Under the pieces are notes generated by a model. The model saw only the letters and a list, made by a program, of their open reading frames with translations. It had not been told where the DNA came from and searched no databases. The position numbers were made by a program, and so were the translations under genes. A stretch of 64,000 nt of DNA. Origin: Calothrix sp. NIES-4105 (GTDB lineage: Bacteria > Cyanobacteriota > Cyanobacteriia > Cyanobacteriales > Nostocaceae). The stretch is taken from positions 8,981,717-9,045,716 of the forward strand of contig NZ_AP018290.1 in NCBI RefSeq assembly GCF_002368415.1. Reading direction: 5' to 3'. Every line of letters starts with the position of its first letter. Positions within the stretch are counted from its first letter, which is position 1. Shown here in pieces: positions 1-64,000 of this stretch.

Positions 1-128
1 AATACAAGGATTTACAAAATCTTTACCAAATATAGCAAGTATTTTAGTTAACGCAAATAAAAGCATTTGCACCAATACTGATGATTTTATAGTTTTTGTA
101 ATTTAAAATACTAACTTTAATAAAATAA

Positions 129-398
129 AATTTTATACATAATCATCGGCACAAATATTTCACAAGAAACGGTATAAAAGTTTGTGCCACCTCGTATATA
201 TATAGATTAGGACAAAACGACATCGATACGAATTTACCGCAAGGTTGGGGCTTTAATTTAGAAATTATCGGCACCTTAATTTATCGTGGCGCCATTCGTA
301 ATAGTGTACCTTCTCAACCAGATAATCAAGAAACTGCTCATCACAAATTTCCTGAAGATGCAAAGCATCCCTTCAAAACCGCAGCTTTTAGCTGGTAA
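129..398 (+). pseudogene. 3' relic of an unrecognised gene
   Basis: A reading frame without stops runs about 89 codons and ends at TAA 396-398. Its last 60 or so residues look like real protein (it contains GWGFNLEIIGTLIYRGAIR and ends KTAAFSW), while the first part is AT-rich and unconvincing. No start codon with a ribosome binding site is visible, so this is more likely the tail of a truncated gene than a small gene. It contains a GGCGCC site (288-293) read as Gly-Ala. I do not recognise the family. It is adjacent to two other decayed loci. Confidence 0.4.
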
Positions 399-439
399 CT
401 CGTAGTATAGGCATTCAGTGCTACAGTATACATTTGTAA

Positions 440-457
440 GGTGGGCTTCGGCCCACC
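440..457. repeat. GGTGGGC hairpin repeat
   Basis: Perfect 7-bp stem GGTGGGC/GCCCACC with a TTCG loop. The same stem with loop CGAA (the reverse complement) occurs at 2047-2064, and a one-mismatch version at 19615-19632. It is a dispersed palindromic repeat of cyanobacterial type. In transcripts it would form a UUCG-capped hairpin. Confidence 0.75.
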
Positions 458-528
458 ATACATTTTGCTATTGTAGTTAGATATATCGGACTTTTGGCAA
501 AAATTTCTAACAGTAAAAAAGACTACCG

Positions 529-703
529 TTAAACAATGCTATTTAAGCTTTGTATGATATTATCAAGTCTTGATAAAGCTTTTTTAAATGGTAACTTTTC
601 ATCCTCAGCCGCGCAATAATTCGCATAGAATACCAATCCTTCTCAATGAAGGAGCTATCTACGCCTAATCCAACAGCTATTATCTTTATAGTTTCTAATT
701 CAA
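529..703 (-). pseudogene. Remnant of AbiEii-type nucleotidyltransferase toxin
   Basis: On the minus strand a TTG at 703-701 overlaps the stop of the antitoxin gene (700-702), the usual translational coupling of AbiE-type pairs. It opens a frame reading MIELETIKIIAVGLGVD, followed by FIEKDWYSMRIIA. The EKDW(Y/W) segment is typical of the extreme N-terminus of AbiEii/AbiGii nucleotidyltransferase toxins. The frame then shifts: a second frame gives AEDEKLPFKKALSRLDNIIQ and stops at 529-531. The whole catalytic centre (G-S/G and D-x-D region) is absent, so the gene has an internal deletion plus a frameshift. Family assignment rests on this short motif and on synteny with the antitoxin. Confidence 0.6.
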
Positions 704-1122
704 TCAAGGTACTCAAAAGCTATATACATTCCTGCATAACCTATCTTACGCTTTATGCGTGTTTTTACACCAATAAGTCTACCAGTGGGTACTTGTGTAG
801 AGCGTCCTTCATTATATGCTTGCTGATAGCTAGATGGGAATGTTTCAATTCCAAATTTCTTTAATACCTCAACACCCAACTCAGGTAGTGGTTTTCGAGG
901 AATAACACGCTTTGAGAAAGGAGATACTATGGCTTTGGCGTAAAGGCCATGCCCTATTCTTATCATTTTGCCCTTTTTTACCAAATTGCGGAGACTACGC
1001 CCGACGCTATTGTAATCACCGATACCGTTAAAATCCTTACGTGTAAAGACTTCATCTTCGGCAAGCGTTATTTTTTCAATTATCTTATCCTCCAGAGTTC
1101 TGGAAGCCTCAATGGTTTTCAT
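700..1122 (-). CDS. DUF6088 / AbiEi-type antitoxin-like protein
   Basis: 140-residue protein with an N-terminal winged-helix region (about residues 10-65, including GDYNSVGRSLRNLVKKGKMI) and a segment GRSTQVPTGRLIGV typical of the DUF6088/AbiEi antitoxin family. In type IV AbiE systems the antitoxin represses its own operon and neutralises a nucleotidyltransferase toxin. Family members are usually near 200 residues. This one ends early at AFEYLD, and a toxin remnant starts in the overlapping TTG. The antitoxin is therefore probably an orphan left after toxin loss, and may itself be shortened. Start ATG 1120-1122. Confidence 0.7.
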   Translation of the reverse strand: MKTIEASRTLEDKIIEKITLAEDEVFTRKDFNGIGDYNSVGRSLRNLVKKGKMIRIGHGLYAKAIVSPFSKRVIPRKPLPELGVEVLKKFGIETFPSSYQQAYNEGRSTQVPTGRLIGVKTRIKRKIGYAGMYIAFEYLD

Positions 1123-1350
1123 TTTAAATTAGCCTTTAAACGTAAAACTTATAATTGAGGAACGATGCCTAAATTATAACAAATAGTTTGTTTATAAGTG
1201 ACTTATACCTACTTATAAGTTATTATTATATACGTATCGATAATAACAGAATAGTATTTTTACCTTATTAGACGCAGAGGACACAGAGAGGGATTTTTCA
1301 GGAAAAGTATGTTTTGCTGTTGTTGTTAGCTATAAAATTAATGCAGTTAA

Positions 1351-2025
1351 ATGCTTAAATTTATACAACAGCAATTTATTTATACAAAAACAAAACGTTG
1401 GTTTGGGATTCGGCGCCGTTGGTTTATATTAATTCTGTTATCTTTTTGGTTTATTGTTTCATTATGGCAGGCGCCGACTGTAAGTTTAAGTAAATCTACT
1501 TTTGAAATACGCGGTATTTGGATAACGAATTTTGGTGTTGCTTTAAATTACTATACGACTCGTTTAGATGAAGCTGTAGCTAATATTGCTAAACATAATT
1601 TAAATATAGTTTACCCAGCAGTATGGAATCGTGGTTATACGTTACATCAAGCGTAATGTGGCAAAAAATGTCAGTGGTTCTGAGCGATATTATTTGACTT
1701 CGTTACCTTTGTTACCTTTTCAAGATGCACTACGCGCGATGAAGTTATAGTGCAGGTTTATCGCGAAGATTTATCAAGTCTGAAGTCTGAACTTAGAAAT
1801 GATAATTTGCTAAGTATTAAAAATAAGATTCCTGTAGCAATTGGTTTGTATACTGGCCCTTTTCTAGATGCAAAGCCAATTGAAAGGGTTAAGCAAGAAA
1901 TTAAAATTGTTAAAGAGTCAGCATATAAAGGTGTTTCTTTCTTTTGCTGGGAAACTACTTTGTGGTTTTTTAAGGGAGGTTCGCATCAGCAAGTTGAACG
2001 GAGTTTTCGTCAATTGTTTATTTAA
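1351..2025 (+). pseudogene. Broken glycosyl-hydrolase-like (GHL10-type) gene
   Basis: Three fragments of one protein lie in different frames. 1351-1656 carries a basic N-terminus, one membrane helix (about residues 24-40) and EIRGIWITNFGVALNYYTT with NIVYPAVWNRGYTLHQ, typical of the glycosyl-hydrolase-like family with a (beta/alpha)8 fold (PF02638 type). About 1665-1749, in another frame, reads KNVSGSERYYLTSLPLLPFQ. 1750-2025 is the C-terminal end (VAIGLYTGPF, GVSFFCWETTLWFF). The central catalytic part, several hundred bases, is missing. At least one frameshift, one deletion and an in-frame stop (1747-1749) show that the gene is dead. Confidence 0.75.
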
Positions 2026-2046
2026 TATTGCTACAAGGTAGAGTAA

Positions 2047-2064
2047 GGTGGGCCGAAGCCCACC
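2047..2064. repeat. GGTGGGC hairpin repeat
   Basis: Perfect stem GGTGGGC/GCCCACC with loop CGAA. The flank CCCTACTACTA is shared with the copy at 19615-19640, which shows that more than the hairpin is repeated. It lies 20 bases after the broken hydrolase gene. Confidence 0.75.
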
Positions 2065-2094
2065 CTACTACTATCTAGTATTATTATGACTCAA

Positions 2095-2125
2095 GTTAAC
2101 CTATACTTAATAATTTGCATTAACA
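2095..2125 (+). promoter_or_regulatory. Candidate Pho box upstream of alkaline phosphatase
   Basis: GTTAACCT (2095-2102) and CTTAATAA (2106-2113) lie exactly 11 bp apart, followed by CATTAACA at 2118-2125. Cyanobacterial Pho boxes bound by SphR/PhoB are tandem octamers of the form PyTTAAPyPyW separated by 3 bp. The first two units fit well (the first has G at position one); the third is offset by one base. The position, about 40-70 bp before an alkaline phosphatase start codon, supports phosphate-starvation control. This is a motif match only. Confidence 0.5.
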
Positions 2126-2163
2126 ATGAGAGAATAAAATTCGATAATTTTATGGTGGCTTAA

Positions 2164-3954
2164 ATGATTGCGATACGCCGAAAATATCAGAAATGGCTTG
2201 CTTTGATGGCATCTGCTATCTTATTAACGTTTGTAGCATTCGGCTGTAATCAAGTTCTCCAATCAACGCGCGGTAACGGTATCAATGTAATATTGATGAT
2301 TGGCGATGGTATGGGATGGCAAATGGCGCGCGCTGGAGCAGTGGGTTTGGGCGCCCCTATGTATACATCCGGCAAAGGACAAGGTTTAAATTTTCAAAAG
2401 CTTTCTGGTTATACTTTGGCAACTAACTACAGCACAATTATACAGGGCAAAGACGGTTCGTTTTCGCCTAATAATTCCGCTCTTGATGAAACAAATTTTG
2501 AAACTGGTAAAAGTGCTGTTACCTCTGGCTTTGTTTTCAAGCCTGCATTTAATAACACTGATAGTAAAAATCCAACTAGTTCCAATGGTGGTAATCTTGT
2601 TGGCTATGACCCTGTGCGCGGTGGTCAAAACCCTTGGACACTCGGTAGTGACAAAGAATATATAAAACTTAATTATCCTGATTCTGCTGGTACTGCTACT
2701 ACTCTTTATACAGGTAACAAAACTTACAACAACGCGATGGGTGTAGATATCTACGAAAGGCGCCAAACTACTATTCTTGAACAAGCTGCACTCAAAGGTA
2801 AATCTACAGGTTTAGTTACATCTGTCCCTATTAGCCATGCTACACCAGGCGCCGCTGCTTCATTCGTAAATCGACGCAGTAAATATGATGCTCCTAATGC
2901 TGATTTAGATAATATTCTCCAGCAAACATTAAAAATCTTTAAACCGACTGTGTTACTGGGTGGTGGTCATCCGCTTGACTTGGATAACAAAACAGCTAGG
3001 GGAGGATTTAATAACTATGTTTATATGATGGAGTCAACTTATAAGGAGTTTAAAGAAAAGCCCAAGGATAACTCTTATGGTTACACGTTTGTAGAACGGG
3101 GACCAAACGCGGCTCAAACTTTGTTGGAAACAGCTAAATCTCTTGACCCAAATAAGCGAGAGAAGCTTTTGGGATTATATGGCGCCCGTGGACAAAGTGG
3201 TAATTTACCTTTTAGTACGGCAAATGGTGACTACAGTAGTACCGGATTTGATAGTGCTTCTGTATATTCTACCGCTAGCAAAAATCAGCAAATTCCTAAA
3301 CCCGATACAGTACGTCCTTTATTACCTGGTGAAACTGATGCTGATTTTATCAAAAGAGAAATCAACGAAAATCCAACTTTATCAGATTTGACGCAAGCAG
3401 CATTAACTGTTTTGGGTAAAGACCCTGATGGTTTTTGGTTGATGGTCGAAGGTGGGGATATTGACTGGGCTTGTCATGATGATAATATGGACAACCTCAT
3501 CGGTACAGTGAAGGACTTTGACAAAGCTGTCGGTACCGTTGTTAGCTGGATTAATCTTAATGGTGGTTGGAAGAAGAATTTGCTAATTGTTACTGCCGAC
3601 CATGACCATTATTTAACGCTTAATCCCAATTTTGAGGAATTATTAACTACAGTAGGCGCCGAAGATTTGACGTACAACAAACATAAACCAACTGAAGCTG
3701 CCCATTTCTGGGGTAGTGATTCAAGTATTAAGTACGGCTGGGGTAATCATAGTAATCACTTAGTACCTGTTTATTATCAAGGTGGCCCGGTTAGCTTTGA
3801 TAAATATGTTGGTCAAAATGTTACCTTTATCGATCATCCCCCTGGAGGCGCCGCTAAAACTTACTCGATACCTGGAGTCAAAGGTGCTGTAGACCAGTCT
3901 CACATATATAAAGTTATGCTGGAAGCTATAACGGCGCCTGTTGCTAAAAGTTAA
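2164..3954 (+). CDS. Alkaline phosphatase (PhoA-type), lipoprotein-like
   Basis: 596-residue phosphomonoesterase releasing phosphate from organic esters outside the cytoplasm. The N-terminus has a hydrophobic signal ending AFGC (Cys28), which resembles a lipobox although Phe at -2 is unusual. Family motifs are present in order: VILMIGDGMG (metal ligand Asp48), PDSAGTATTLYTG (catalytic Asp-Ser-Ala), SHATPGAA, VEGGDIDW, TADHDH and GNHSNHLVPVYY. It is larger than E. coli PhoA (about 470), with inserted loops, as in several cyanobacterial homologues. It stands alone, with a possible Pho box upstream. It contains seven GGCGCC sites. Confidence 0.93.
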   Translation: MIAIRRKYQKWLALMASAILLTFVAFGCNQVLQSTRGNGINVILMIGDGMGWQMARAGAVGLGAPMYTSGKGQGLNFQKLSGYTLATNYSTIIQGKDGSFSPNNSALDETNFETGKSAVTSGFVFKPAFNNTDSKNPTSSNGGNLVGYDPVRGGQNPWTLGSDKEYIKLNYPDSAGTATTLYTGNKTYNNAMGVDIYERRQTTILEQAALKGKSTGLVTSVPISHATPGAAASFVNRRSKYDAPNADLDNILQQTLKIFKPTVLLGGGHPLDLDNKTARGGFNNYVYMMESTYKEFKEKPKDNSYGYTFVERGPNAAQTLLETAKSLDPNKREKLLGLYGARGQSGNLPFSTANGDYSSTGFDSASVYSTASKNQQIPKPDTVRPLLPGETDADFIKREINENPTLSDLTQAALTVLGKDPDGFWLMVEGGDIDWACHDDNMDNLIGTVKDFDKAVGTVVSWINLNGGWKKNLLIVTADHDHYLTLNPNFEELLTTVGAEDLTYNKHKPTEAAHFWGSDSSIKYGWGNHSNHLVPVYYQGGPVSFDKYVGQNVTFIDHPPGGAAKTYSIPGVKGAVDQSHIYKVMLEAITAPVAKS

Positions 3955-3972
3955 AATAAAACCGAACTATAA

Positions 3973-4749
3973 TTAATTTAATAAATCAGGTTGTTGTCGA
4001 GTAATCAGATCGTAAAGGGGTTGGAAGTTAAGCCAACCCATGTAGTGTGAACCGACTTGGTGACGTGCTAAAGTTGCTGAGTCATGGTTGATAAAGTTAG
4101 GTTTGCCTGCAGCTTCAGCAAGTAACTGCGCTTGGCTAATACGTTCCAGCGAAATAAACCACCACGCAGCTTCATCGACTGAGTGACCAACTGTTAGTAA
4201 ACCGTGATTTTTTAAAATTAAAGCTTTGTTATCGCCTAAAGTCTCAGCAATACGTCTACCTTCTTCTAGGTCTAAAACTACACCAGTATAGTCATGATGA
4301 ACTCTGTGATGATTGTAGAAAGCGCAGGCATCTTGACTTAGAGGGTCTAATTCGCGACCTAAAGTTGACCAGCTTTTTCCGTAAATTGAGTGAGTGTGAA
4401 CTATGGCAATTACATCAGGACGCGCGGCGTGAATTTGAGAATGGATAGCGAATGCAGTTTCATTACCAAGATTTTCACCTTCTACGACTTCTCCCATATT
4501 GTTAACACGGATAAGGTCACTAGCTTTAATTTCACTAAAATCCATCAAGCATGGATTTACCCAAAAACTATCCAAATATTCTGGGTCACGCACGGTAATA
4601 TGTCCACCAACTCCTTCATTGAAACCGTATTTAGCAAATAGTCGAAGTGCTGCTGCAACACGTTGTTTGCGATGTAAACGTTCTTCGCCAATACAAGTAA
4701 AGGTTGGTGGAGTGGGAGTTTTAGGTTTAAGGCGTGATGCTATTTGCAT
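3973..4749 (-). CDS. Class II aldolase/adducin family protein
   Basis: 258 residues with the zinc-site signature of class II aldolases: Glu97 region (GNETAFAIH), HTHS at 118-121 and KNHG at 180-183, plus an N-terminal GGHIT motif. Members act as sugar-phosphate aldolases, epimerases or dehydratases; the substrate cannot be read from the sequence. It converges on the alkaline phosphatase with only 18 bp between the stops and no obvious terminator. Length is normal for the family. Confidence 0.9.
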   Translation of the reverse strand: MQIASRLKPKTPTPPTFTCIGEERLHRKQRVAAALRLFAKYGFNEGVGGHITVRDPEYLDSFWVNPCLMDFSEIKASDLIRVNNMGEVVEGENLGNETAFAIHSQIHAARPDVIAIVHTHSIYGKSWSTLGRELDPLSQDACAFYNHHRVHHDYTGVVLDLEEGRRIAETLGDNKALILKNHGLLTVGHSVDEAAWWFISLERISQAQLLAEAAGKPNFINHDSATLARHQVGSHYMGWLNFQPLYDLITRQQPDLLN

Positions 4750-5032
4750 TTTTAATTTTTATATAAGGTGTGCGCGTTAGCGATAAAAATAGAATTTTTA
4801 AGGCTTTTAATACAAGTTTATACTTCTCTATATATATATGCATCCTTCAGTTTCATTTATTAACAATAATTACGAATAGTTACGAATATTTACAATAATT
4901 CCGACGAAACAAAAACGGTAACAATGTGTATCGCTGCATAAAACAGGTAAGAAAATTTCCTTACAATGAACTAAAAGACTATATATAGGGTCTTGTTTTT
5001 ACTTAGTAATACAAGAGTGCATAAGGAAAAGC

Positions 5033-5491
5033 ATGTCTAAAACCGTTGCCGATGTGATGAGCCGCAACCCAGTAGTTGTTCGGCGTGAAACTTCCTTAAC
5101 CGAAGCGATAAAAATTTTAGCAGAGCGTCGAATCAGCGGATTACCCGTTGTGGACGATAGCGGCAAGCTTGTAGGGATTATCTCGGAGACGGATTTGATG
5201 TGGCAGGAAACAGGTGTTACACCACCTGCCTACATTATGTTTCTTGATAGTGTGATTTATTTACAAAACCCTGCTACATACGAACGTGATTTACATAAAG
5301 CGCTTGGGCAAACGGTTGGAGAGGTGATGAGCAAAGACCCAATTACCGTAGCTCCAGATAAATCAGTGCGCGATGCTGCTAAACTCATGCACGATAAAAA
5401 TGTCCACCGTCTACCGATACTTGACAGCGAGGGTCAAGTCATTGGTATCCTCACACGTGGTGATATTATCCGCGCGATGGCTAGTGGTTAA
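5033..5491 (+). CDS. CBS-domain pair protein
   Basis: 152-residue protein made almost entirely of two CBS domains (about residues 3-56 and 94-150), each with the typical GLPVVDDSGKLVGIISETD or HRLPILDSEGQVIGILTRGD ending. Tandem CBS modules bind adenine nucleotides such as AMP, ATP or c-di-AMP and act as cytosolic energy sensors for partner proteins. No catalytic domain is attached. Start ATG 5033 is preceded by AAGGA. The partner is unknown. Confidence 0.92.
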   Translation: MSKTVADVMSRNPVVVRRETSLTEAIKILAERRISGLPVVDDSGKLVGIISETDLMWQETGVTPPAYIMFLDSVIYLQNPATYERDLHKALGQTVGEVMSKDPITVAPDKSVRDAAKLMHDKNVHRLPILDSEGQVIGILTRGDIIRAMASG

Positions 5492-5551
5492 TCACCACAT
5501 GTGAATGTATTCGCCTGTATTCAAGATAAGTTTTAAAAGAGAGAGATTTAG

Positions 5552-6205
5552 ATGAGCGTTACACCTGATAGTGTTAAGCAGATGCTAGCTTCAGAAAATT
5601 TAGGCGACCGTTTGCGTGCCGTAAATTTAATTAGGGACTTAGAACCATCTATTGGTTTTGAATTGATTCAATCTGCTGTGAATGATTCTAATGCGCGCGT
5701 TCGCTACTCAGCAGTTAGTCAAGTAGATACTTTAGGTGGTCAAGACTTAGATTTATCGCTTTCATTGCTGCGTCGCATGATGCAAGACCCTGAACCAGAC
5801 GTTCAAGCTGCTGCTGCTGACTGTGTTGGCGCCTTAAAGTTAGTTGCAGCATACGACGATTTGAATCAGCTATATCACAGTACAAGTGAATGGATAGTTC
5901 AACTTAGCATAATAGCCACATTAGGAGCATTAGGGGAACCACGGGGATTTGAGTTGCTAAAAGTTGCGCTCGACTCAAGTAACGAACTAGTTAAAATTTC
6001 TGCAATTAGCGCTTTGGGTGAGTTAGGGAACCCAGAAGCAATTTCTTTGATCGCACCACTCGCAGAAAACCCCGACTGGCAAATTCGTCATCGAGTTGTC
6101 CTTGCTTTACGTCTTCTAGGTGGAGAACAAGCTCAATCTATATTAGAGTCTTTGAGCAAAGACGAAGTAGAAGCAGTTGCAGTAGAAGCCAAAAGACCCG
6201 CTTAG
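5552..6205 (+). CDS. nblB: HEAT/PBS-lyase repeat protein, NblB-like
   Basis: 217 residues built of five or six HEAT-like helical repeats (for example RVRYSAVSQVDTLG, ELVKISAISALGELGNPEA, DWQIRHRVVLALRLLGG). The sequence looks like cyanobacterial NblB, a protein related to phycobilin lyase subunits (CpcE/F) that is required for phycobilisome breakdown under nutrient starvation. It lies 60 bp after the CBS protein on the same strand and is followed by a strong terminator. The repeat fold is clear; the specific NblB assignment rests on overall resemblance and length. Confidence 0.7.
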   Translation: MSVTPDSVKQMLASENLGDRLRAVNLIRDLEPSIGFELIQSAVNDSNARVRYSAVSQVDTLGGQDLDLSLSLLRRMMQDPEPDVQAAAADCVGALKLVAAYDDLNQLYHSTSEWIVQLSIIATLGALGEPRGFELLKVALDSSNELVKISAISALGELGNPEAISLIAPLAENPDWQIRHRVVLALRLLGGEQAQSILESLSKDEVEAVAVEAKRPA

Positions 6206-6238
6206 AAAAAAGTAAACTCATAAATTAGTAAATTCACT

Positions 6239-6271
6239 AGTCCGGTACAATTACTGTCCACGGACTTTTTT
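6239..6271 (+). terminator. Rho-independent terminator after nblB-like gene
   Basis: Stem AGTCCG (6239-6244) pairs with CGGACT (6261-6266), followed by a run of T. It lies 33 bases after the stop codon. Confidence 0.8.
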
Positions 6272-6646
6272 ATTGTCGCAACGTGCGGTATATACTCTAC
6301 ATTATTAGTACTTTCACCAAACACTACAAATCTTGATTAACGATGTTATTAGGTATATAAAAATTTAACAAAGTAGATACAAAGATTTATTTTTTGACCG
6401 TAAAAGCATAATTCTCGTGCTAACTTATTTGACTTACTTTGTTGCCATACTGTTGTCAAAAGTTACACTGAACTTGCGTAATTTACCAAATATTATTACT
6501 GGTATCAAGTTCAAGTAAACCTTGTCGAAAAGGGATGACGTTTGCACGGAGGCGGAAATACTATACGAATATCAATCAGAGAAAACACGCAGAAAAAACT
6601 CTAGTGTGCTTCCTGAAAGAAATACGTAATTATTTCAATTCAAACC
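6272..6646. other. AT-rich spacer upstream of PEP-CTERM gene
   Basis: No credible gene. A 75-codon frame (6535-6762) overlaps the PEP-CTERM coding start in another frame and has no coding character. The region probably holds the promoter and leader of the downstream surface-protein gene. Confidence 0.5.
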
Positions 6647-7447
6647 ATGCAAAAAGCTATGTTGTCCGCAAAAATTCTCGCAGCAGCTACTCTCGGTCTA
6701 AGTGTTCTTACTTTTGCTTCCACTGCAAGTGCTACTTCCTTAGTTCCGAATCGAGAAGGTGAAATTAAAACAGAAAATCTTGGCTGTATTGTTGCTGCTG
6801 CTAATTGTATCGACACTACTAACCCAACACAATCACCTTTTACTTATAAAGTTAAAAGCTTAGAATACGATTTTGATGGCTTGAACCCTCAATTTATCGA
6901 AAGCCGTTTGTTTGTTGATAACCGTAGCACTGAAAACGATTACGGTTTCGGTATTAAATTTGGTGAAACAGATAAAGGTACAAACCCACCTCCTGGTGAG
7001 TACTGGTTCCGTCCTGTAGCACAATATATTGATGGTGTTGATGAAGATGGTAAACCTTTGGTTAAGGCTTTTGAAGACGGGCAATTAGAAGTTGGTAGAT
7101 TCTTGTTTGATTTTCTTGGTAAAACAGTTTCTTCCGTAACTTTTGATTTATTTGATGTTGAAGATGCAGATTTCACCAAAATTTTGGAAGTTAACGATCA
7201 GGCTCTCAATCCAGAAAAGATTGCTATTGCTGGCGCCGATGGCAACAGACAGCAAATCACCATCTACGATGTCAAATCATTTAAAATTCAACTTGGCAAG
7301 CCTGGTCCTAACAGCGTATTTTCTAACACTGGTGATGGTGTAGCAATGCGTGCTAGTGTTCCTGAACCTGCTACTGTAATTAGCTTGGGTGCGTTGGCTG
7401 TGGCTGGTATGTTTGGTACTCGTCAACGTCGTAGAATGGGTGTTTGA
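6647..7447 (+). CDS. PEP-CTERM exosortase-sorted surface protein (LEVG type)
   Basis: 266 residues. An N-terminal Sec signal (AATLGLSVLTFASTASA, about residues 10-29) and a C-terminal sorting signal made of VPEP (about 238), a hydrophobic helix and RQRRR mark it as a substrate of exosortase, which moves and trims such proteins at the cell surface. The segment DGQLEVGRFLFDF matches the LEVG subgroup of cyanobacterial PEP-CTERM proteins. The middle shows no catalytic motif. No exosortase gene is in this window. The ATG at 6647 has no strong Shine-Dalgarno sequence. Confidence 0.88.
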   Translation: MQKAMLSAKILAAATLGLSVLTFASTASATSLVPNREGEIKTENLGCIVAAANCIDTTNPTQSPFTYKVKSLEYDFDGLNPQFIESRLFVDNRSTENDYGFGIKFGETDKGTNPPPGEYWFRPVAQYIDGVDEDGKPLVKAFEDGQLEVGRFLFDFLGKTVSSVTFDLFDVEDADFTKILEVNDQALNPEKIAIAGADGNRQQITIYDVKSFKIQLGKPGPNSVFSNTGDGVAMRASVPEPATVISLGALAVAGMFGTRQRRRMGV

Positions 7448-7448
7448 T

Positions 7449-7472
7449 GGAACGGGCTTTCCTGCCCATTCC
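7449..7472. terminator. Hairpin after PEP-CTERM gene
   Basis: GGAACGGGC (7449-7457) pairs with GCCCATTCC (7464-7472) with one mismatch. There is no T run, so it may be a repeat or a Rho-dependent/stabilising hairpin. Confidence 0.5.
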
Positions 7473-7484
7473 ACAATACATGCC

Positions 7485-7532
7485 CATTCCATAAGATGGC
7501 TATTCCATAAGATGGCTATTCCATAAGATGGC
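7485..7532. repeat. 16-bp tandem repeat, three copies
   Basis: TATTCCATAAGATGGC is repeated at 7501-7516 and 7517-7532, and a copy differing only in the first base lies at 7485-7500. The array ends at the stop codon of the DUF456 gene (7533). Confidence 0.9.
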
Positions 7533-8048
7533 TTAATTATAAACTTGTGGATAAGTAGTATAAATAAATACGACAACTGCAGCAATTGCGAGTAATCCTT
7601 GGATTAAATTACCCACTAGGGTGCCTACCACAATACCAAGACCTGCTTTAACAGCAGTTTGAAAATTTTTACAATACAAATATTCGCCAATAATTGCTCC
7701 TAATAATGGTCCAAGTAACATACCTACCAATGGACCACCAACAGGAAGCGCGGGCAATAAACCTAAAAATCCGACTATTAAACCAATAAAGGCGCCTATT
7801 TGTCCCCAATTACTAGCACCTGCTTTCTTGGCGCCAATGTAACCGGCTAGGAAATCAACGCCAATACTTAACAGTAAAACTATACCTGTAACAATAAGAG
7901 GAGTACTGATAGCGGCAAAAGACTTTTGCACAAAACCCCAAATAATAATCGCAATTAAAATCAAACTGCTTCCCGGTAAAGCTGGAACAACGGCGCCAAC
8001 TATCCCAATTATCATTACTATTACCAGCGACCAATAAATAATTTGCAT
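7533..8048 (-). CDS. DUF456 membrane protein
   Basis: 171 residues, almost wholly hydrophobic with five or six membrane helices and glycine-rich turns (ALPGSSLILIA, ALPVGGPLVGMLLGPLLGA). This pattern is that of the DUF456 family of small inner-membrane proteins, whose function is unknown. A 16-bp tandem repeat abuts its stop codon. It converges on the PEP-CTERM gene. Confidence 0.85.
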   Translation of the reverse strand: MQIIYWSLVIVMIIGIVGAVVPALPGSSLILIAIIIWGFVQKSFAAISTPLIVTGIVLLLSIGVDFLAGYIGAKKAGASNWGQIGAFIGLIVGFLGLLPALPVGGPLVGMLLGPLLGAIIGEYLYCKNFQTAVKAGLGIVVGTLVGNLIQGLLAIAAVVVFIYTTYPQVYN

Positions 8049-8083
8049 TTTTAAGTTAGGAGTATTGAGTTAGGAGGCGCGTC

Positions 8084-8142
8084 GGGGCGGGTTTACCTAT
8101 ATCCTGGTATATAACGGGAAACTTTGGTAAACCCGCCCGTAC
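8084..8142. repeat. GGGCGGGTTTACC inverted-repeat element
   Basis: About 59-bp imperfect palindrome with arms CGGGTTTACC and GGTAAACCCG. Related copies lie at 8869-8927, 54828-54886 and 57910-57968. The 57910 copy is almost the exact reverse complement of this one. It behaves as a small dispersed, MITE-like element with no coding capacity. Confidence 0.85.
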
Positions 8143-8167
8143 AGGAGTTGGGAGGAGCGGAGTTAAA

Positions 8168-8226
8168 CTCAGCACTCAGCACTCAGCACTCAGCACTCAG
8201 CACTCAGCACTCAGCACTCAGCACTC
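8168..8226. repeat. Heptamer repeat array (CTCAGCA)8
   Basis: Eight perfect copies of CTCAGCA, a short tandemly repeated repetitive sequence typical of filamentous cyanobacteria. The array supplies the last codons and the TGA stop of the minus-strand gene ending at 8218. Other fragments of this family lie at 11637-11660, 15134-15203, 34838-34858, 57898-57906 and 58160-58177. Confidence 0.95.
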
Positions 8227-8856
8227 TTCCAGACTAACAGCTAATTTATCAGCAATTCCAGCTATCCAGTTTTCATCTTGCTTTGTATAACTACGGGGTG
8301 CGTTGGCGCCTAATATCATTGCACCATCTTTACCTATTGGTTGACAAATTATCCCTTGCGTGTTTTCAGGTAGGTAATCAAACTCTATTCTTCCTGGATA
8401 AGCTTTGACATCAACTAAATAAACAGGCTTTTGTTTTTCGAGTACTCGGTTTAATATTGCTCCTGGTTTGACTTCTGATTTTTGCCCTAGAATTCCTCGC
8501 CGCAATAAAACTTGACCTTTATATACAATTACAATCGAGCGCGTTACTGTGTTCAGTAGCAATAATCGCGAAGCCCAGGCTAATTCATTTTTTACTTGCT
8601 CAGGTAAAGACGGCGCCATTTCAAACCCTTCTTCGCCTATCAACTCTACAGCATCAGGAATTCGGGCTTGTACTTGTTGCCATAGCATACCTGTTAGCAC
8701 CAATAACGCACTCAATATTACTCCCAAAACATCGGCGCGCGATTGGGAGTTTGTTAGTTCTTGTGTGAATATTCTATTTATAAATAATAATATGGCTCCT
8801 AATATACCTACTACTAGCGGTAGGCGCCTGATTACGCGATTTGGGTCTTTTGCCAT
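8218..8856 (-). CDS. Cofactor assembly of complex C subunit B (CCB2/CCB4 family)
   Basis: 212 residues with two N-terminal membrane helices (about 12-28 and 43-60) followed by a soluble domain containing LLLNTVTRSIVIVYKGQVLLRRG. This architecture and sequence match the CCB2/CCB4 family, which helps attach haem c(i) to cytochrome b6 during assembly of the b6f complex in thylakoids. The final codons (EEC-stop) are formed by the heptamer repeat array, so the C-terminus seems to have been set by repeat expansion. Confidence 0.85.
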   Translation of the reverse strand: MAKDPNRVIRRLPLVVGILGAILLFINRIFTQELTNSQSRADVLGVILSALLVLTGMLWQQVQARIPDAVELIGEEGFEMAPSLPEQVKNELAWASRLLLLNTVTRSIVIVYKGQVLLRRGILGQKSEVKPGAILNRVLEKQKPVYLVDVKAYPGRIEFDYLPENTQGIICQPIGKDGAMILGANAPRSYTKQDENWIAGIADKLAVSLEEC

Positions 8857-8868
8857 AAATTAAAAGGA

Positions 8869-8927
8869 GGGGCGGGTTTACTTATATTTTGGTAGATAAT
8901 GGGAAATTTAGGTGAACCCGCCCGTGC
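8869..8927. repeat. GGGCGGGTTTACC inverted-repeat element, second copy
   Basis: Related to 8084-8142, with arms GGCGGGTTTAC and GTGAACCCGCC and a diverged centre. It lies 13 bp upstream of the CCB2/4 gene start and may sit in its promoter region. Confidence 0.8.
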
Positions 8928-9114
8928 AGTAGTTATGAAGTGCAATGTATCGTGTCTATAAAAAGTTAAGAATTATGAATCTAAATTTGTCACTATCAAA
9001 TTTAATATTCACAATTCTTAATAAATATTATACAAACAAGCGATTAGCCTTCTATCAAGCCTTTCCCCTCCTAACTCTTGAATTCAGAATTCTGAATTCC
9101 GCGCCTCCTAACTT

Positions 9115-11648: not shown

Positions 11649-11660
11649 GTGCTGAGTAAT
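11637..11660. repeat. Heptamer repeats overlapping the radA stop
   Basis: GTGCTGA-GTACTGA-GTGCTGA are three heptamers in the reverse orientation of CTCAGCA. They encode the final radA residues and provide the TGA at 11646-11648. Confidence 0.85.
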
Positions 11661-42190: not shown

Positions 42191-43306
42191 ATGACGCTTA
42201 AACCGAAAATATTTTCTTTTTTTGCTGGTTCTGGTTTTTTAGATTTAGGATTTGAGGCTAGTGGTTATGATGTTGTTTATGTCAGCGAGATTTTTAAGCC
42301 TTTTATGGCAGCATATAAATACTCGCGCGTCAATCTAAATTTACCTTTGCCTGAATATGGATATCATGATGGGGAAGATGGTGATGTTAATAGGCTTATA
42401 TCACACGCTAATTATTTAAAGAGCGTTGTCAAGGATTGCCGCGCGGATGATAGAAATATAATTGGATTTATTGGTGGCCCTCCATGTCCTGATTTTGCAG
42501 TGGGTGGTAAAAATCGAGGTTGTTCAGGCTCTAATGGTAAGCTTAGTAGTTCGTATGTTGAATTGATTTGTCAACAGCAGCCTGATTTTTTTGTATTTGA
42601 AAATGTTAAAGGATTGTGGAAGACGCAAAAGCATCGTTTGTTTTATGATGCGCTTAAAGCTTTATTGCAGCAAGCTGGTTATATATTGACTGAGCGCTTG
42701 ATTAATGCTGTTGAGTATGGTGTACCGCAAGATAGACAGCGAATTATATTAATTGGTTTTCATTCTAGTTATTTAAATATAAACGAAGATAGGATTAAAA
42801 ATTTCCCTTGGCTTAATTATATTTTATATTCTCAAGATACTGTTTTTGCTTATCCTTGGAGTCAGTCGGCGCCGTTTGTTGCAGATTCTAGTTTTCCTTG
42901 TCCAGAAAAAATTCCTCAAGAACTAACCGTTGAATACTGGTTTAATAAAAATAATGTCTTAAGTCATCCAAATTCATTACACCATTTTCAGCCTAAAGCT
43001 GGGTTAAAAAAGTTTGCGTCAATTGCTGAAGGTGATAATTCGAGAAAGTCTTTTAAACGCTTGCATCGTTGGCGTTATTCTCCAACCGCTTGTTATGGCA
43101 ATAATGAAGTTCATTTACACCCGTATAAACTTCGCCGTATATCTGTTGCTGAGGCGTTAGCAATTCAATCTTTACCGTCTAACTTTATCTTACCTGATAG
43201 TATGTCACTTACCAATATGTTTAAAACTATAGGTAACGGTGTGCCTTTTTTAGCTTCCAAAGCAATTGCTCAATCAATTCTTGATTTTATCCAAGGTTCC
43301 GTCTAA
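42191..43306 (+). CDS. C5-cytosine DNA methyltransferase, solitary
   Basis: 371 residues with the standard motif order: I FSFFAGSGFLDLGFE (8-22), IV GGPPCP with catalytic Cys99, VI ENVKGL (137-142), VIII QDRQRIILIG (180-189), IX RRISVAEALAIQSLP and X TIGNGVPFLASKAIA. The target-recognition region (about 200-300) is of ordinary size. No restriction endonuclease gene adjoins it: deoC follows and a repeat element precedes. An orphan regulatory or protective enzyme is likely. The target sequence cannot be deduced; GGCGCC is an interesting candidate because it is so abundant here. Confidence 0.95.
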   Translation: MTLKPKIFSFFAGSGFLDLGFEASGYDVVYVSEIFKPFMAAYKYSRVNLNLPLPEYGYHDGEDGDVNRLISHANYLKSVVKDCRADDRNIIGFIGGPPCPDFAVGGKNRGCSGSNGKLSSSYVELICQQQPDFFVFENVKGLWKTQKHRLFYDALKALLQQAGYILTERLINAVEYGVPQDRQRIILIGFHSSYLNINEDRIKNFPWLNYILYSQDTVFAYPWSQSAPFVADSSFPCPEKIPQELTVEYWFNKNNVLSHPNSLHHFQPKAGLKKFASIAEGDNSRKSFKRLHRWRYSPTACYGNNEVHLHPYKLRRISVAEALAIQSLPSNFILPDSMSLTNMFKTIGNGVPFLASKAIAQSILDFIQGSV

Positions 43307-59628: not shown

Positions 59629-60711
59629 TTAAGCTGGCTGAAAAAGATGTAGTGATGTAGCAACTGCGCTCTTTACTTCTTCGAGTTTTTTAAGAACAGT
59701 TCCATTACTGAGAAGTTCTTCAGCTTTGGCAATACCTGCAAAAATATCCTGACATACACCACTGCGCCACAGATAAAATCCTCCATTCCACAATGCACTT
59801 TGCATAACTTCACACTTTTGACCTTTTAGTGCTGCTTTGATTTCTAATATCAACTCGGATGTTGTTTTTAACGGTACGTCTTGCGTTGTAAAGTTGTAAT
59901 CACGAGGCGCCAAAAGTAATCGTTCGATTGATGCTGTTTCAGATGCAGTAGACCCTAAACCAATTATTGCTGTACGGTCGCGCGGTAAATCACAACTGCC
60001 TTCTAAGCCTTTAACAGTAGTGAATTGAGTAATACCCTGTAATGTTAAAGCGGTTTGAAACATTTCTTCGGTAGGAGGATGAACGAAGCCAGAAATAATA
60101 TGAGCATCACCCAAGTAAGGGTTCCATATTAATTCCATTGTGGCAAATGGGGGTCGTTTACCTAATTGGTCGCGGTATTCCCAGATTGCATTAGTCAGAG
60201 GAAAATGCTTGGGTGTGTATACTAAAGCAATACCTGTTTGCTCAAATACCTGTTGGGTTAGATCAAACGACATGGAAGTCCAGTCAACTCCTAATGACTG
60301 CCATACCTCAACCAAAGGTAAACCATATTTAGTTGGCAAACGACCCCCACCATGCATAACAACAGGTTGTCCTGCTGCTGCAAGTAATAAAGCTGTTATT
60401 GGACTAATTGGTGCAGTGCGAGCGCGACCGTCATAAGGTATACCTAAAACTATAATTCGCTCATTCGCAATTGGTTTAAGCTTTGGCCCTAGTTCATTAT
60501 ACGCATCCAACATCCCCGCTAATTCTTCACCTGTTGGGCGCCGAATGCGGTGAGCAATCATAAATGCACCAATTTGTGCTGGTGTTGCCTCACCCAGCAA
60601 CATCATCCTAGTAACAGTAGCAGCCGACTCACGAGTTAGATTAGAAGAAGTATGGTTTCCACTGCCGACTTTTTTTAGCAATTCCCGAAATTTATTACTC
60701 ATTTTATTCAC
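59629..60711 (-). CDS. TrpD-like (anthranilate phosphoribosyltransferase family) protein
   Basis: 360 residues with the nucleoside phosphorylase/PRT fold: an N-terminal helical domain (SAATVTRMMLLGEATPAQIG, then AFMIAHRIRRPTGEELAGML) and the alpha/beta domain. The PRPP loop of true TrpD (GTGGD) is replaced by LGIPYDGRARTAPIS, as in the TrpD paralogues found widely in cyanobacteria whose substrate is unknown. It lies downstream of the ntcB-like gene on the same strand, about 40 bp apart, suggesting an operon under that regulator or NtcA. Confidence 0.85.
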   Translation of the reverse strand: MNKMSNKFRELLKKVGSGNHTSSNLTRESAATVTRMMLLGEATPAQIGAFMIAHRIRRPTGEELAGMLDAYNELGPKLKPIANERIIVLGIPYDGRARTAPISPITALLLAAAGQPVVMHGGGRLPTKYGLPLVEVWQSLGVDWTSMSFDLTQQVFEQTGIALVYTPKHFPLTNAIWEYRDQLGKRPPFATMELIWNPYLGDAHIISGFVHPPTEEMFQTALTLQGITQFTTVKGLEGSCDLPRDRTAIIGLGSTASETASIERLLLAPRDYNFTTQDVPLKTTSELILEIKAALKGQKCEVMQSALWNGGFYLWRSGVCQDIFAGIAKAEELLSNGTVLKKLEEVKSAVATSLHLFQPA

Positions 60712-60754
60712 TGTTTATTATTTACAACTGGTGATTGCGCTGTATCACCAATAA

Positions 60755-61708
60755 TTAACTTGCGTTTCGCATCATATCCAAATTGAACTGAGGTGGTATG
60801 TGTTGACGCACCAGTTGCCAGAAATGTTGAATTGGAGGAATTTGCAAACGGTCATTAGTAGTTACCATAACGACTCGACGGGTTAAACTCGATGTCGTCT
60901 CCGGAAGAAGACTGTTGTTATTAGCAAGGGGACGAACTGCAAGAGTCGGGTCATTGCGTGCTTCGACTAAAGCTGAATATGGTAACAGCGCTACAAATTC
61001 ACCTTGTCGAACTACTCCTCTAAAAGCATCAAGCGTATTTACTTCTAAAGCCGCTTGTAAAGTTGCTTCGAGTCGCTCAAATTTATCTTGTACTAACCTT
61101 TGCATTCCATACCCGTCTTTGAATACAACTTGCGGGTAATTAACTAACTCCGACCAGGAAATTGTGTCATATTGTGCTAAAGGATGGCTAACTGCGATCA
61201 AAACCTCAATTGGTTCCTCATATAGTGTTTCTACAATCATTTCGCGACCTGTAGTCAGGAAACGATTGTTCATCACAATTGCTAAGTCAACCAAACCATC
61301 CTTAAGAACTTTCAGCGCGCGGTCACTCCCTAACGATGTCACCCGCAACTGTACATCCGGGTAATCGTGGCAAAATTGCTGTAATACTGGCGGTAAGTAA
61401 TAAGCACATAGCGAGTGAATCGCAGCAATACATAGCTCTGGTTGCTTTCCAGACACCAAATCAGCTATTTCCTGCGTCGCGCTTTGCCATTCAGCATATA
61501 TTTTACGCGCGCGCGGCAATAACCGCTCACCCGCAAGCGTTAATTTTGCCTGACTTGTACGGTGAAAAAGTTCACATCCCAAGTCCGCTTCTAATGCCTG
61601 AATTTGACGACTGATAGTCGATTGCGTGACACCGCATTTACGCGCTGCCCCTTGAAAACTACCAGCCTCAGCAATACCCAGAAAAGCTTGTAGCTGCTCT
61701 AGTCGCAT
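60755..61708 (-). CDS. ntcB: LysR-family regulator, NtcB-like
   Basis: 317 residues. Winged-helix DNA-binding domain (1-60; MRLEQLQAFLGIAEAGSFQG, then CGVTQSTISRQIQALEADLG) and effector domain (about 90-300; RVTSLGSDRALKVLKDGLVD). The sequence strongly resembles NtcB, the activator of nitrate-assimilation genes in cyanobacteria; CmpR/RbcR-type LysR proteins are the alternative. A GTA-N8-TAC sequence lies 8 bp upstream of the start codon. No nitrate or nitrite genes are in the window. Confidence 0.75.
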   Translation of the reverse strand: MRLEQLQAFLGIAEAGSFQGAARKCGVTQSTISRQIQALEADLGCELFHRTSQAKLTLAGERLLPRARKIYAEWQSATQEIADLVSGKQPELCIAAIHSLCAYYLPPVLQQFCHDYPDVQLRVTSLGSDRALKVLKDGLVDLAIVMNNRFLTTGREMIVETLYEEPIEVLIAVSHPLAQYDTISWSELVNYPQVVFKDGYGMQRLVQDKFERLEATLQAALEVNTLDAFRGVVRQGEFVALLPYSALVEARNDPTLAVRPLANNNSLLPETTSSLTRRVVMVTTNDRLQIPPIQHFWQLVRQHIPPQFNLDMMRNAS

Positions 61709-61715
61709 TGTTTAT

Positions 61716-61729
61716 GTAGCCTGAATTAC
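61716..61729. promoter_or_regulatory. Possible NtcA site upstream of ntcB-like gene
   Basis: GTA-GCCTGAAT-TAC matches the NtcA consensus GTA-N8-TAC. It is only 8 bp before the ntcB ATG, closer than an activator site (-41) should be, unless transcription starts within the coding region or the site represses. The motif is short: about 20 chance matches are expected per 64 kb. Confidence 0.3.
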
Positions 61730-62341
61730 ATTTGTGGCTTTTATCAACTTAGCTGATTTGACACTAAGTTTTAGTAGATTTTGTTACATCTTGCTGATTC
61801 GCTGCCATTTTTTGCAGCAGGTGCAATGTTGGGTTATTTACGTTCAATACGGTAAAACAACCGAGTTTTTGACGAAATCTGACTATCAGAGAATTCTAAA
61901 TATTTTCTTAAAAAATAATTCAGTCCCACAAAAAAATTAACATTTGATTCCCATATGTTAAGAAAAGTCAACAATATGGTACATTTGCATTGCATGATCA
62001 GACGCGCGTTCTAGGTAGGGTCTATTTGTTTATATTGCTTGCGCTCTAAACAAGCCTAAAAATATGAAGTGTTGATAAATCATAAACTGATGACTTTTAT
62101 ATTAAAGTTTTTTTACAATTCAGTACTGATAACTTTGCACTTTCAACATAAAGCAACCAACTAGCAGCAACATATTTTCAGCGTATTCTCGTAATTATAA
62201 GATTTATTGCACGTTAAATAAATCACATTATTTTCTGAGCCGAGGAAAATCAAAAAAATCAGGGATACCTCTGGTGTCGGAAGCTAGAAAGGATTACACA
62301 ATGGGCGTATAAACAAAAAACGTTCATTAGTGTTGACGAGA
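61730..62341. other. Promoter and leader region of the first PEP-CTERM paralogue
   Basis: About 600 bp, AT-rich, no convincing gene (a 68-codon frame at 61734 has no coding character). From about 62010 it is similar to 63270-63600 upstream of the second paralogue, including TTATATTGC(T/C)(T/C)GCGCT and CAGGGATA(C/T)CTCTGGTGTC. Confidence 0.6.
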
Positions 62342-62347
62342 ATGATT

Positions 62348-63145
62348 ATGAAAATTGCAAATTTAGTAAGTAAAGCAGCTATCGTTTCTGGTGTAATTTT
62401 GTCTGCCGCTATTGTAAGTCGCCCTGCAATGGCTGCGTCTTTTACAATAACAATTGAAGACCCAGGTGTAATGAATGCAAATTCATCAAATTTGAGTAAT
62501 CGCTATGTACAAACTTTTGATGGACAAGCAACTGGTTTTAACGAAAATGGCTTCAAATGGATTGATAGTAATGGGCAAACGATTGGTCAATATAGTACTG
62601 TTATGATCCAAGATCCAGACCAATATGGTGCTGCTGGTGGAAACGGGAAGTATTTCGATGTAAATACAGGAAGATCGGGTAACGCAAACCAAACGATTGC
62701 TACCCTAAAACTGGCAAACGCACAAAAGTACTTCGGATTTTGGTGGTCTGCGGGTGACAGTAACAACAAACTAGAGTTTCTATCAAACGGTACATCTGTA
62801 TACACGATGACTACTGCGGATTTAGTTAATCAAATAAACAGCCTATCAAATAAAGAGGCATACTACGGTAATCCTAACTCGCCATTTCAAGATCAAAATT
62901 CTGGTGAAGCCTATGCTTTCATCAACTTCTACAATACTGATGGAACCTTTGACGAAATTAGATTTACCAACATTGGTGCAACTGGTTTTGAATCAGATAA
63001 TCACACAGTAGCCGCTAATTTCACCAATACTCGTGCGGTTCCTGAGTCTTCTTTTGTGTTAGGCATTGGTTCGATTGCTTTTGTAGGTGCTGCTTCAGTT
63101 ATGACTCGCACGAAGAAGAAGAAGACCGTTTTTAAATTGTCATAA
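62348..63145 (+). CDS. PEP-CTERM exosortase-dependent surface protein
   Basis: About 265 residues from ATG 62348 (ATG 62342 and TTG 62330 are in frame). Signal peptide AAIVSGVILSAAIVSRPAMA, then a beta-rich domain containing QKYFGFWWSAGDSNNKLEFL, and a C-terminal VPESSF motif, hydrophobic helix and a basic RTKKKK tail: an exosortase substrate. It resembles the cyanobacterial Npun_F0296-type surface protein family. It has a tandem paralogue starting at 63603. No GGCGCC occurs in either copy. Confidence 0.87.
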   Translation: MKIANLVSKAAIVSGVILSAAIVSRPAMAASFTITIEDPGVMNANSSNLSNRYVQTFDGQATGFNENGFKWIDSNGQTIGQYSTVMIQDPDQYGAAGGNGKYFDVNTGRSGNANQTIATLKLANAQKYFGFWWSAGDSNNKLEFLSNGTSVYTMTTADLVNQINSLSNKEAYYGNPNSPFQDQNSGEAYAFINFYNTDGTFDEIRFTNIGATGFESDNHTVAANFTNTRAVPESSFVLGIGSIAFVGAASVMTRTKKKKTVFKLS

Positions 63146-63195
63146 GCGCACGGTTCAACCAATTCAAATAGCTATGATTCTGCTAATGACAATAT

Positions 63196-63226
63196 AAGGA
63201 TTGGGCTTGCGTCCAGTCCTTTTTTA
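63196..63226 (+). terminator. Terminator after first PEP-CTERM paralogue
   Basis: AAGGATTGG and CCAGTCCTT form a stem with one mismatch over an 8-base loop, followed by T6. Confidence 0.8.
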
Positions 63227-63602
63227 TTGGTTACTTTCATCATTCCTAGAGGAAAAATCAAACGAGTGTAGGGTTTATATCTTTATATTGCTCGCGCTTT
63301 GGACAAGCCTAAAAAAATGAATTGCTGATCAGGCATAAACTAACACATTTGTATTCAATTTTCTTAAAATTTAGTACTTATAACTTCGCATTTTCTAGAT
63401 AAAGCAATCAATAAGCAGCAGCATTTTTCTGCGTATTATCGTCATATTTAGATTAATACTTTGTTAAATAAATAACATTTTTATTTAAGCAAAGTCAAAT
63501 CAAGAAAATCAGGGATATCTCTGGTGTCAGAAGCTGAGAAAGGCTTGCAAAATAAGCATATAAACTACAGTAACGCACTTCGAGCGTTTCACAATAATGA
63601 TT
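63227..63602. other. Leader region of the second PEP-CTERM paralogue
   Basis: Non-coding, homologous to about 62010-62347. Best conserved parts are GACAAGCCTAAAAA(A)ATGAA near 63302 and the block TCAGGGATATCTCTGGTGTC at 63510-63529. Confidence 0.6.
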
Positions 63603-64000
63603 ATGAAAGTTAGAAATATTGTAAGTAAAGCAGCTATCGTTTCTGGTGTAATTTTGTCCGCTGCGATTGTAAGCCGCCCTGCAATGGCTGCGTCTTTTAA
63701 AGTAACAGTCGAAGACCCAGGTGTAATGAATGCAAATTTATCAAGTTTGCAAAATGCTTATGTACAAACTTTTGATGGACAAGCATCTGGTTTTAACAAA
63801 AACGGCTTTACATGGATTGTTAATGATCTAACGATTGGTCAATATAGTAATGTTCTGATCATAGACGCGGATCAATACGGCGGTGCTGGTGGAACCGGAA
63901 AGTATTTTGATGTAGATACAAAAAGATCGGGTGCAGGTCAAACGATTTCTACGTTAAAGCTGACAACCCCACAAAAATACTTCGGATTTTGGTGGTCTGC
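63603..64000 (+). CDS. PEP-CTERM surface protein, tandem paralogue (partial)
   Basis: Starts at ATG 63603 (or 63597) and runs off the window end. The visible 132 residues parallel the upstream gene: the same signal peptide (AAIVSGVILSAAIVSRPAMA), then EDPGVMNANLSSLQNAYVQT and KLTTPQKYFGFWWSA. About three quarters of residues are identical. It arose by tandem duplication including the upstream control region. Confidence 0.88.
   Translation, partial: MKVRNIVSKAAIVSGVILSAAIVSRPAMAASFKVTVEDPGVMNANLSSLQNAYVQTFDGQASGFNKNGFTWIVNDLTIGQYSNVLIIDADQYGGAGGTGKYFDVDTKRSGAGQTISTLKLTTPQKYFGFWWS

Follow-up and report, generated by a model that had tools for sequence, protein, structure and literature searches.

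What keeps one short palindrome at high density in a cyanobacterial genome that nearly lacks the palindrome iterated in most cyanobacteria? The question is raised by a stretch of 64,000 bases from Calothrix sp. NIES-4105 (G000:C1:8981717-9045716, G000 being its genome of 12.04 Mb), hereafter the window, in which GGCGCC recurs and the highly iterated palindrome (HIP) known as HIP1 (GCGATCGC) is missing. To our knowledge, HIP1 has been known for decades without an agreed function. Based on sequence comparisons, our favored reading, which we hold with moderate confidence, is that GGCGCC is an alternate HIP, methylated by an orphan enzyme of the GRCGYC type and constrained at the DNA level, throughout the genus around Calothrix PCC 7103 and PCC 7716.

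An earlier note on this DNA, made from the letters alone, had estimated about 100 GGCGCC sites, far above what base composition predicts, and had seen no HIP1. The exact count is 100 at 39.9% G+C, compared with 4.0 expected from base composition and 6.6, 5.7 and 16.2 under order-1, order-2 and order-3 Markov models; HIP1 and CGATCG both number 0. The palindromic, strandless sites span positions 288 to 60542, with first bases at 288, 1412, 1470, 2350, 2759, 2848, 3181, 3655, 3847, 3933, 5828, 7232, 7791, 7830, 7992, 8305, 8612, 8823, 10499, 10778, 10995, 11093, 12916, 13293, 13509, 14625, 15592, 15609, 17109, 17445, 17998, 18356, 18693, 19455, 19877, 21651, 21846, 22707, 23846, 25420, 26216, 27175, 27919, 28087, 28729, 29344, 29619, 29962, 30177, 31961, 32087, 32621, 33700, 33989, 34631, 35041, 35963, 36450, 36616, 36986, 37721, 39416, 39818, 40039, 40794, 40991, 41315, 42868, 43675, 43858, 43897, 44565, 44689, 45159, 45612, 45953, 47146, 47512, 47680, 47914, 48206, 49281, 49509, 50775, 50983, 51254, 52991, 53700, 54224, 54246, 54552, 54923, 55071, 55762, 57873, 58091, 58373, 58971, 59906 and 60537. 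The 89 sites within open reading frames (ORFs) of at least 150 aa occupy codon phases 0 (Gly-Ala), 1 (Arg-containing) and 2 (Ala-Pro) in 46, 13 and 30 cases, which bears out the earlier claim that all three phases are used, and the 11 sites it had named all carry the word in the phase it gave. The remaining 11 of the 100 sites lie outside such ORFs.

The surplus extends to the whole genome, which contains 18,131 copies of GGCGCC (1,506 per Mb) and only seven of the reversed word CCGCGG. In a 704-kb sample (the window together with 32 further 20-kb stretches of the same genome), GGCGCC was the most over-represented 6-mer, with 997 copies per strand, 6.3-fold above an order-3 Markov expectation. 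That background is itself inflated by GGCGCC; once the sites were masked, 29 copies were expected, giving a surplus of about 34-fold, so both estimates lie above the threefold level that the earlier note had taken as its lower limit. Nor does HIP1 return to a typical density elsewhere: the genome holds 125 copies, about 10 per Mb, and none occurs in the 264 kb that the window forms with ten stretches flanking it, compared with 34 within 40 kb of the relative G009. The HIP1 copies in the 704-kb sample lie mostly inside GATC-rich stretches. GATC occurs 43 times in the window and 55 times, against 318 expected, in six loci of the genus. Bins of 2 kb with at least six GATC averaged 2.05 GGCGCC (20 bins) and the others 2.87 (332 bins; p = 0.011). 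Two stretches (L287, positions 1-8000, and L288) are rich in HIP1 and GATC, mostly high in G+C, and carry few or no GGCGCC; judging from their composition, such stretches are probably imports from HIP1-type cyanobacteria.

At a density of about one per 630 bp, gap lengths between sites were indistinguishable from exponential (Kolmogorov–Smirnov p = 0.16; 419 gaps in the 264 kb), and regular spacing was rejected, the variance-to-mean ratio in 1-kb bins being 0.85–1.03 across four genomes. The stretch without GGCGCC at 60543..64000 (strandless), reported earlier as the longest gap, is indeed the longest, but it does not end with the window: the next site lies 888 bases beyond, making 4,351 bases between first bases, the largest of the 419 gaps. 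We also observed that pairs of sites less than 50 nt apart are scarce in synteny blocks of G000, G002, G003 and G004 (80 versus about 140 expected).

GGCGCC as a HIP is not new. Elhai (2015; Life 5:921, PMC4390886) described this alternate HIP from Calothrix PCC 7103 and from fragments of D253, and since PCC 7103 belongs to the genus, the kind was already known. In that account, HIPs are GC-rich words, generally at 1,000–2,000 per Mb, with alternate HIPs where HIP1 is low or absent; exceptional HIPs are sporadic and not found in clades; PCC 7103 has no recognizable GGCGCC-specific methylase and two of GRCGYC type, for no enzyme of which the methylated base was known; and mismatch repair directed by G-methyl-C is proposed to create HIPs. 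Among later publications, covered by titles and the opening lines of abstracts and with most subscription journals outside the coverage, we found none that treats GGCGCC as a HIP.

We then considered how far the surplus extends among relatives, using 41 genomes: G000 and 40 relatives, which comprise seven genomes of the genus (G000 included), 18 from other genera of the family and 16 from other families. All seven genus genomes are GGCGCC-rich, with 7,475–20,380 sites or 1,150–1,711 per Mb, within the range typical of HIPs, while counts do not exceed 530 in any of the 18 other genera of the family or 2,493 in the 16 genomes from other families. The genus includes Calothrix PCC 7716, PCC 7103, HK-06/NIES-2101, FI2-JRJ7 and C42_A2020_038 as well as Dulcicalothrix desertica PCC 7102. 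Among 388 genomes of the order, densities above 1,000 per Mb were confined to the three genus members sampled and to G083 and G140, in which the reversed-word control was high as well (2,450 and 1,104). HIP1 is low in G000, the genome that the genome-wide HIP1 count covers within the genus, as is usual alongside an alternate HIP, and in six genus loci of 17–21 kb it was absent from five and present once in the sixth (L154). The GGCGCC alternate HIP is genus-wide and looks old, an extent that is new. A second GGCGCC-rich lineage, in family f9, was considered and rejected: in the two members sampled (G192, 20 kb; G032, 100 kb; G061, G084 and G215 were left out), G+C is about 50% and HIP1 is the top word.

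Individual sites, and not only their density, are conserved. The window is syntenic with five genomes that share 91–94.5% identity with one another and 83–85% with G000; identity to G001 is about 80%. Occurrences were counted in both genomes of each pair with G002 as the reference, and words with at least 40 occurrences were ranked. At short distance, GGCGCC was shared in 364/416 cases with G003 (other GC-only 6-mers, 0.754; rank 40 of 1,771), 394/487 with G004 (0.672; rank 134 of 1,868), 104/121 with G006 (0.742; rank 43 of 620) and 94/115 with G005 (0.727; rank 49 of 530). At 14% divergence, with G000, 336/446 occurrences (0.753) were shared compared with 0.439 for other GC-only 6-mers, which made GGCGCC the best-kept of 1,813 words; with G001 the figures were 58/91 (0.637) and 0.377 (rank 2 of 378).

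This conservation persists when codon usage is controlled. Site codons were compared with matched controls; for position 6 of Gly-Ala sites these were other GCC codons within 300 nt. Synonymous changes at C6 numbered 0/96, 7/124 and 24/114 in G003, G004 and G000, versus 26/165, 43/233 and 93/198 in controls (p = 5 × 10⁻⁶, 7 × 10⁻⁴ and 6 × 10⁻⁶). For the same three genomes, four-fold G1 changes were 1/26, 2/35 and 2/31 versus 271/1582, 457/2061 and 821/1810 (p = 0.11, 0.02 and 4 × 10⁻⁶), and C5 changes at Arg sites 1/27, 5/40 and 3/33 versus 49/331, 86/432 and 137/380 (p = 0.15, 0.30 and 0.001). The center of the word behaved differently: synonymous C3-to-T changes (8/96, 16/123 and 23/114 versus 3/52, 6/67 and 18/57; p = 0.75, 0.48 and 0.13) and G4-to-A changes (3/54, 14/66 and 11/58 versus 36/313, 66/421 and 76/370) showed no significant difference from controls. 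Synonymous change within GGCGCC is thus suppressed, most firmly at position 6, and C3-to-T escapes the suppression. Together with the genome- and genus-wide surplus and the use of three codon phases, this supports the earlier proposal that the iterated palindrome is a signal at the level of DNA, in a cyanobacterium poor in HIP1.

Sites that do decay follow the same pattern. When four non-independent pairs are pooled, 108 of the 143 differences by a single base are transitions at C3 or G4; so are 22 of 32 polarized losses. Those 32 losses, on three tips (G004, 18; G002, 10; G003, 4), stand against one clean and five ambiguous gains, whereas other GC-only words on the same tips had 66 losses and 32 gains (excess of GGCGCC losses, p = 0.0004, or 0.057 counting ambiguous gains); 26 sites present in two tips and 23 in all three but absent from G000 were left unpolarized. 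Constraint combined with deamination of a methylated C3 predicts this decay spectrum, and so does constraint that tolerates GGTGCC. GGTGCC was not clearly depleted (1.47 of the masked order-2 and 0.88 of the order-3 expectation). A Vsr-type repair route was rejected, PF03852 being matched in none of the 41 genomes by a search whose controls matched in 5 of 14.

Which enzyme might methylate the word? A survey of C5-cytosine methylase families gave 89 matches in the seven genus genomes, from which all 17 of G000 and part of the others were extracted. Families present in all or nearly all members were that of an enzyme encoded in the window, L096 and L043; a fourth, L048, was found in five of seven. 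The candidate we single out is L043, an orphan C5-methyltransferase of 331 aa encoded outside the window (G000:C1:10505801-10506793; PF00145, E = 1.2 × 10⁻⁶⁵). Its family is found in 7/7 genus genomes at 80–100% identity and is under purifying selection (ratio of nonsynonymous to synonymous substitution rates, 0.05–0.17 in 21/21 genus pairs), and the same two neighbors flank it in five of six named genus loci. Among the matches listed for the remaining 34 relatives, none exceeds 45% identity apart from a broken piece of 129 residues in G009. More widely, 103 of the 385 non-genus genomes of the order have a member of the family at 52–71% identity, and the family also occurs in other phyla. In a tree of 54 rows, the seven genus enzymes form a single clade (support 100/99); the RM and noRE labels on this tree, for restriction-modification (RM) context, were assigned from a single motif, in flanks that differ in length, and the genome search described below disagrees with at least one of them (L221, G384). 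Two paralogs of L043 at about 61% identity, the long-branched L055 and L092, lie on the smaller contigs C2 and C3 of G000; relatives of these occur in G002 and G005.

Outside the genus, this enzyme commonly has a partner. A gene of about 350 aa (where complete) adjoins the methyltransferase gene or lies one gene off in 15 of 20 loci inspected (of 44), and the one such neighbor scanned matched RE_HindVP at E = 2 × 10⁻¹⁵⁴. RE_HindVP (PF09519) is present in 23 of 29 non-genus Nostocaceae that carry the homolog, with 14 full-length and uninterrupted among the matches listed, and the same search found it in 0/7 genus genomes, so no GRCGYC RM pair is seen there. L043 carries both features of the M.BsaHI family, the C5-methylase domain and the target-recognition stretch; by eye, in an alignment of 14 of 19 chosen sequences, the catalytic motifs and this stretch match those of RE_HindVP-paired enzymes; the exceptions are minor and concern one residue after the TI motif (four members) and two motif residues (G006). 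According to Neely and Roberts (2008, PMC2413257), M.BsaHI methylates the central C of GRCGYC, which is C3 of GGCGCC, and a table in PMC8565308 lists a GRCGYC motif for the HindV host, Haemophilus influenzae Rd. From the partner of its relatives and its target-recognition stretch, L043 most likely marks GG(5mC)GCC, where 5mC is 5-methylcytosine. In the flanks of homologs, depletion places GRCGYC 8th of 320 in Poribacteria, 14th for other phyla and 63rd for HIP1 cyanobacteria, which fits this specificity but is not diagnostic. Across the order outside the genus, genomes with the enzyme have somewhat fewer GGCGCC than those lacking it, a weak association (median 6.5 versus 8.6 per Mb; 103 versus 282 genomes, p = 0.04); within the taxonomic family the medians are 0.96 and 4.4 per Mb (29 versus 39 genomes, p = 0.02).

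The sequence of events we envisage would begin with an ancestor that had a GRCGYC RM pair of the BsaHI/HgiDI/HindV type. The endonuclease would have been lost and the methyltransferase kept as an orphan while HIP1 faded. If active, the orphan enzyme would methylate the inner cytosine, and methylated GGCGCC may then have risen to about one per 630 bp and been held there, DNA-level constraint removing most site changes but not deamination of the methylated C3, which would be the main route of decay. The constraint itself may reflect selection on a methyl-dependent function, such as a mismatch-repair strand signal, the model put forward by Elhai (2015), or another whole-genome role, and not biased repair alone. 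More tentatively, an orphaned restriction methylase might have become a genome-wide housekeeping mark, a selected methylated GGCGCC signal that replaced HIP1 genus-wide, was kept site by site over about 20% divergence and was lost mainly by deamination; this fuller account we regard as possible but doubtful.

Several observations weigh against the favored reading. GACGCC/GGCGTC and GACGTC are depleted, at 0.41 and 0.07 of the masked order-2 expectation, so that a plain GRCGYC enzyme alone fails to explain a surplus of GGCGCC only; this would follow from Elhai's G-methyl-C proposal or from a narrower specificity. HindVP is described in PMC2413257 as only a putative enzyme, inactive in vitro. 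Four loci from Tolypothrix, Hassallia, Plectonema and Spirirestis carry the enzyme without an endonuclease nearby, together with HIP1 and only 0–1 GGCGCC in 16–21 kb, and in G324 of the Tolypothrix/Hassallia group RE_HindVP occurs nowhere in the genome; because this group has the enzyme and HIP1 without a GGCGCC surplus, the orphan enzyme alone is insufficient.

The site data contain further points of this kind. Suppression is significant in all three comparisons at position 6, in two of three at position 1 and in one of three at position 5. In none of the three comparisons does C3-to-T significantly exceed context-matched GGC|G wobble sites, and in G000 it is lower (0.20 versus 0.32); C3-to-T is thus prominent because other changes are suppressed, which makes tolerance of GGTGCC an alternative to deamination. 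Intergenic sites at short distance are no better kept than GC-only 6-mers (24/30 versus 83/100; 21/34 versus 53/85), with a tendency toward extra conservation at G000 (19/27 versus 34/74). Since losses exceed gains on the three tips, the sites seem old and slowly eroding, not actively multiplying there.

The strongest rival is that the surplus is a functionless by-product of biased repair, G-methyl-C-directed mismatch repair favoring mutations that create GGmCGCC. This is the model proposed for Calothrix PCC 7103 in PMC4390886, and several features suit it: C3 is preceded by G as required, one family enzyme is known to methylate C3 (PMC2413257), the density is of the order of the model's saturation (about one per 1,000), and depletion of GACGCC/GGCGTC is expected if these words are converted. 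A running ratchet should nevertheless balance, and the tips show 32 losses versus one clean and five ambiguous gains. The clean gain arose from GGCACC, and two of the five ambiguous gains show GACGCC or GGCGTC in another genome. Moreover, Elhai's argument was that clades do not retain alternate HIPs, whereas GGCGCC is found across a genus whose members diverge by about 20% in nucleotide sequence. We consider biased repair alone rather unlikely.

A less probable alternative is that another methyltransferase marks GGCGCC, for example a C5 enzyme of the L096 family or an N4-cytosine enzyme. L096 is full-length in six of seven genus genomes, but it was rejected as the main candidate: G006 has only fragments of it and still has 15,449 GGCGCC, and relatives at 55–72% identity occur outside the genus in G017, G018, G026 and G040, which have 4–265 sites. 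The C3 decay signature is in keeping with 5-methylcytosine. The C5-cytosine methyltransferase encoded in the window (42191..43306, + strand; PCPDF motif), conserved in many Nostocales relatives, was likewise rejected: of the 40 relatives, 21 have full-length homologs (53–78%), and the 15 that lie outside the genus show no surplus, with 3–169 GGCGCC in 14 and 1,106 in G025. It is perhaps DmtD (RCCGGY), going by its distribution and by depletion of ACCGGT.

Slightly less probable still is a DNA-uptake or Chi-like recombination signal with incidental methylation. Density, scatter and site conservation resemble those of uptake sequences, and G002 DNA that does not align to congeners is nearly as dense in GGCGCC as the rest (1.75 versus 1.92–1.98 per kb); such a signal leaves the methyltransferase link and the free C3-to-T change unexplained unless GGTGCC is tolerated. 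A protein-level, codon-usage or base-composition effect, to which only the predominance of phase 0 (Gly-Ala, 46/89 coding sites) lends itself, is refuted as the sole cause and highly improbable overall, given the three phases, the 11 sites outside ORFs of at least 150 aa, the 4–7 sites expected at orders 0–2, the 7 CCGCGG against 18,131 GGCGCC and the suppressed synonymous change.

Other words also deviate. CGCGCG is a second palindrome in surplus, with 64 copies in the window and 529 per strand in the 704-kb sample versus about 175 under the masked order-3 model; it occurs 4–15 times per locus in six congeners, 0–1 times in 12 other cyanobacterial loci and 10 times in 20 kb of the GC-richer G192, and, unlike GGCGCC, it is conserved below the average word in five of six comparisons. 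TTCGAA, TGCGCA, GTCGAC, CCGCGG, CGTACG and CCATGG are at or near zero in the 704-kb sample, and this scarcity of palindromes, GATC included, suggests many restriction systems, past or present. A 14-kb locus of G160 (L312) lacks HIP1 and has GCCGGT/GCCGGC as its top words, similar to the RCCGGY alternate HIP reported for Oscillatoria PCC 10802 in PMC4390886.

Compared with the system of Calothrix PCC 7103, ours has the same word in the same genus, near absence of HIP1 and GRCGYC-type methyltransferases. The earlier account covered one genome and 48 D253 fragments; new here are seven genomes, site-level conservation with a decay spectrum, one orthologous orphan enzyme and its missing endonuclease partner. 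Relative to that account, one enzyme is singled out, the likely methylated base is taken from the 2008 BsaHI work, the decay spectrum agrees with it and persistence across the genus is added. HIP1 is likewise a GC-rich palindrome, found at 300–2,700 per Mb in the majority of cyanobacteria once one group is set aside, and orphan methyltransferases act on part of its word (PMC4390886); GGCGCC is a different word, and GATC and CGATCG are scarce in G000 (43 and 0 in the window). The BsaHI, HgiDI and HindV systems share the methyltransferase family, the target-recognition stretch and the probable methylated position with L043, but in the genus RE_HindVP is unmatched in seven genomes and GGCGCC is in surplus, not scarce. 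A genus in which the word has been swapped allows the word and the methyl mark to be told apart.

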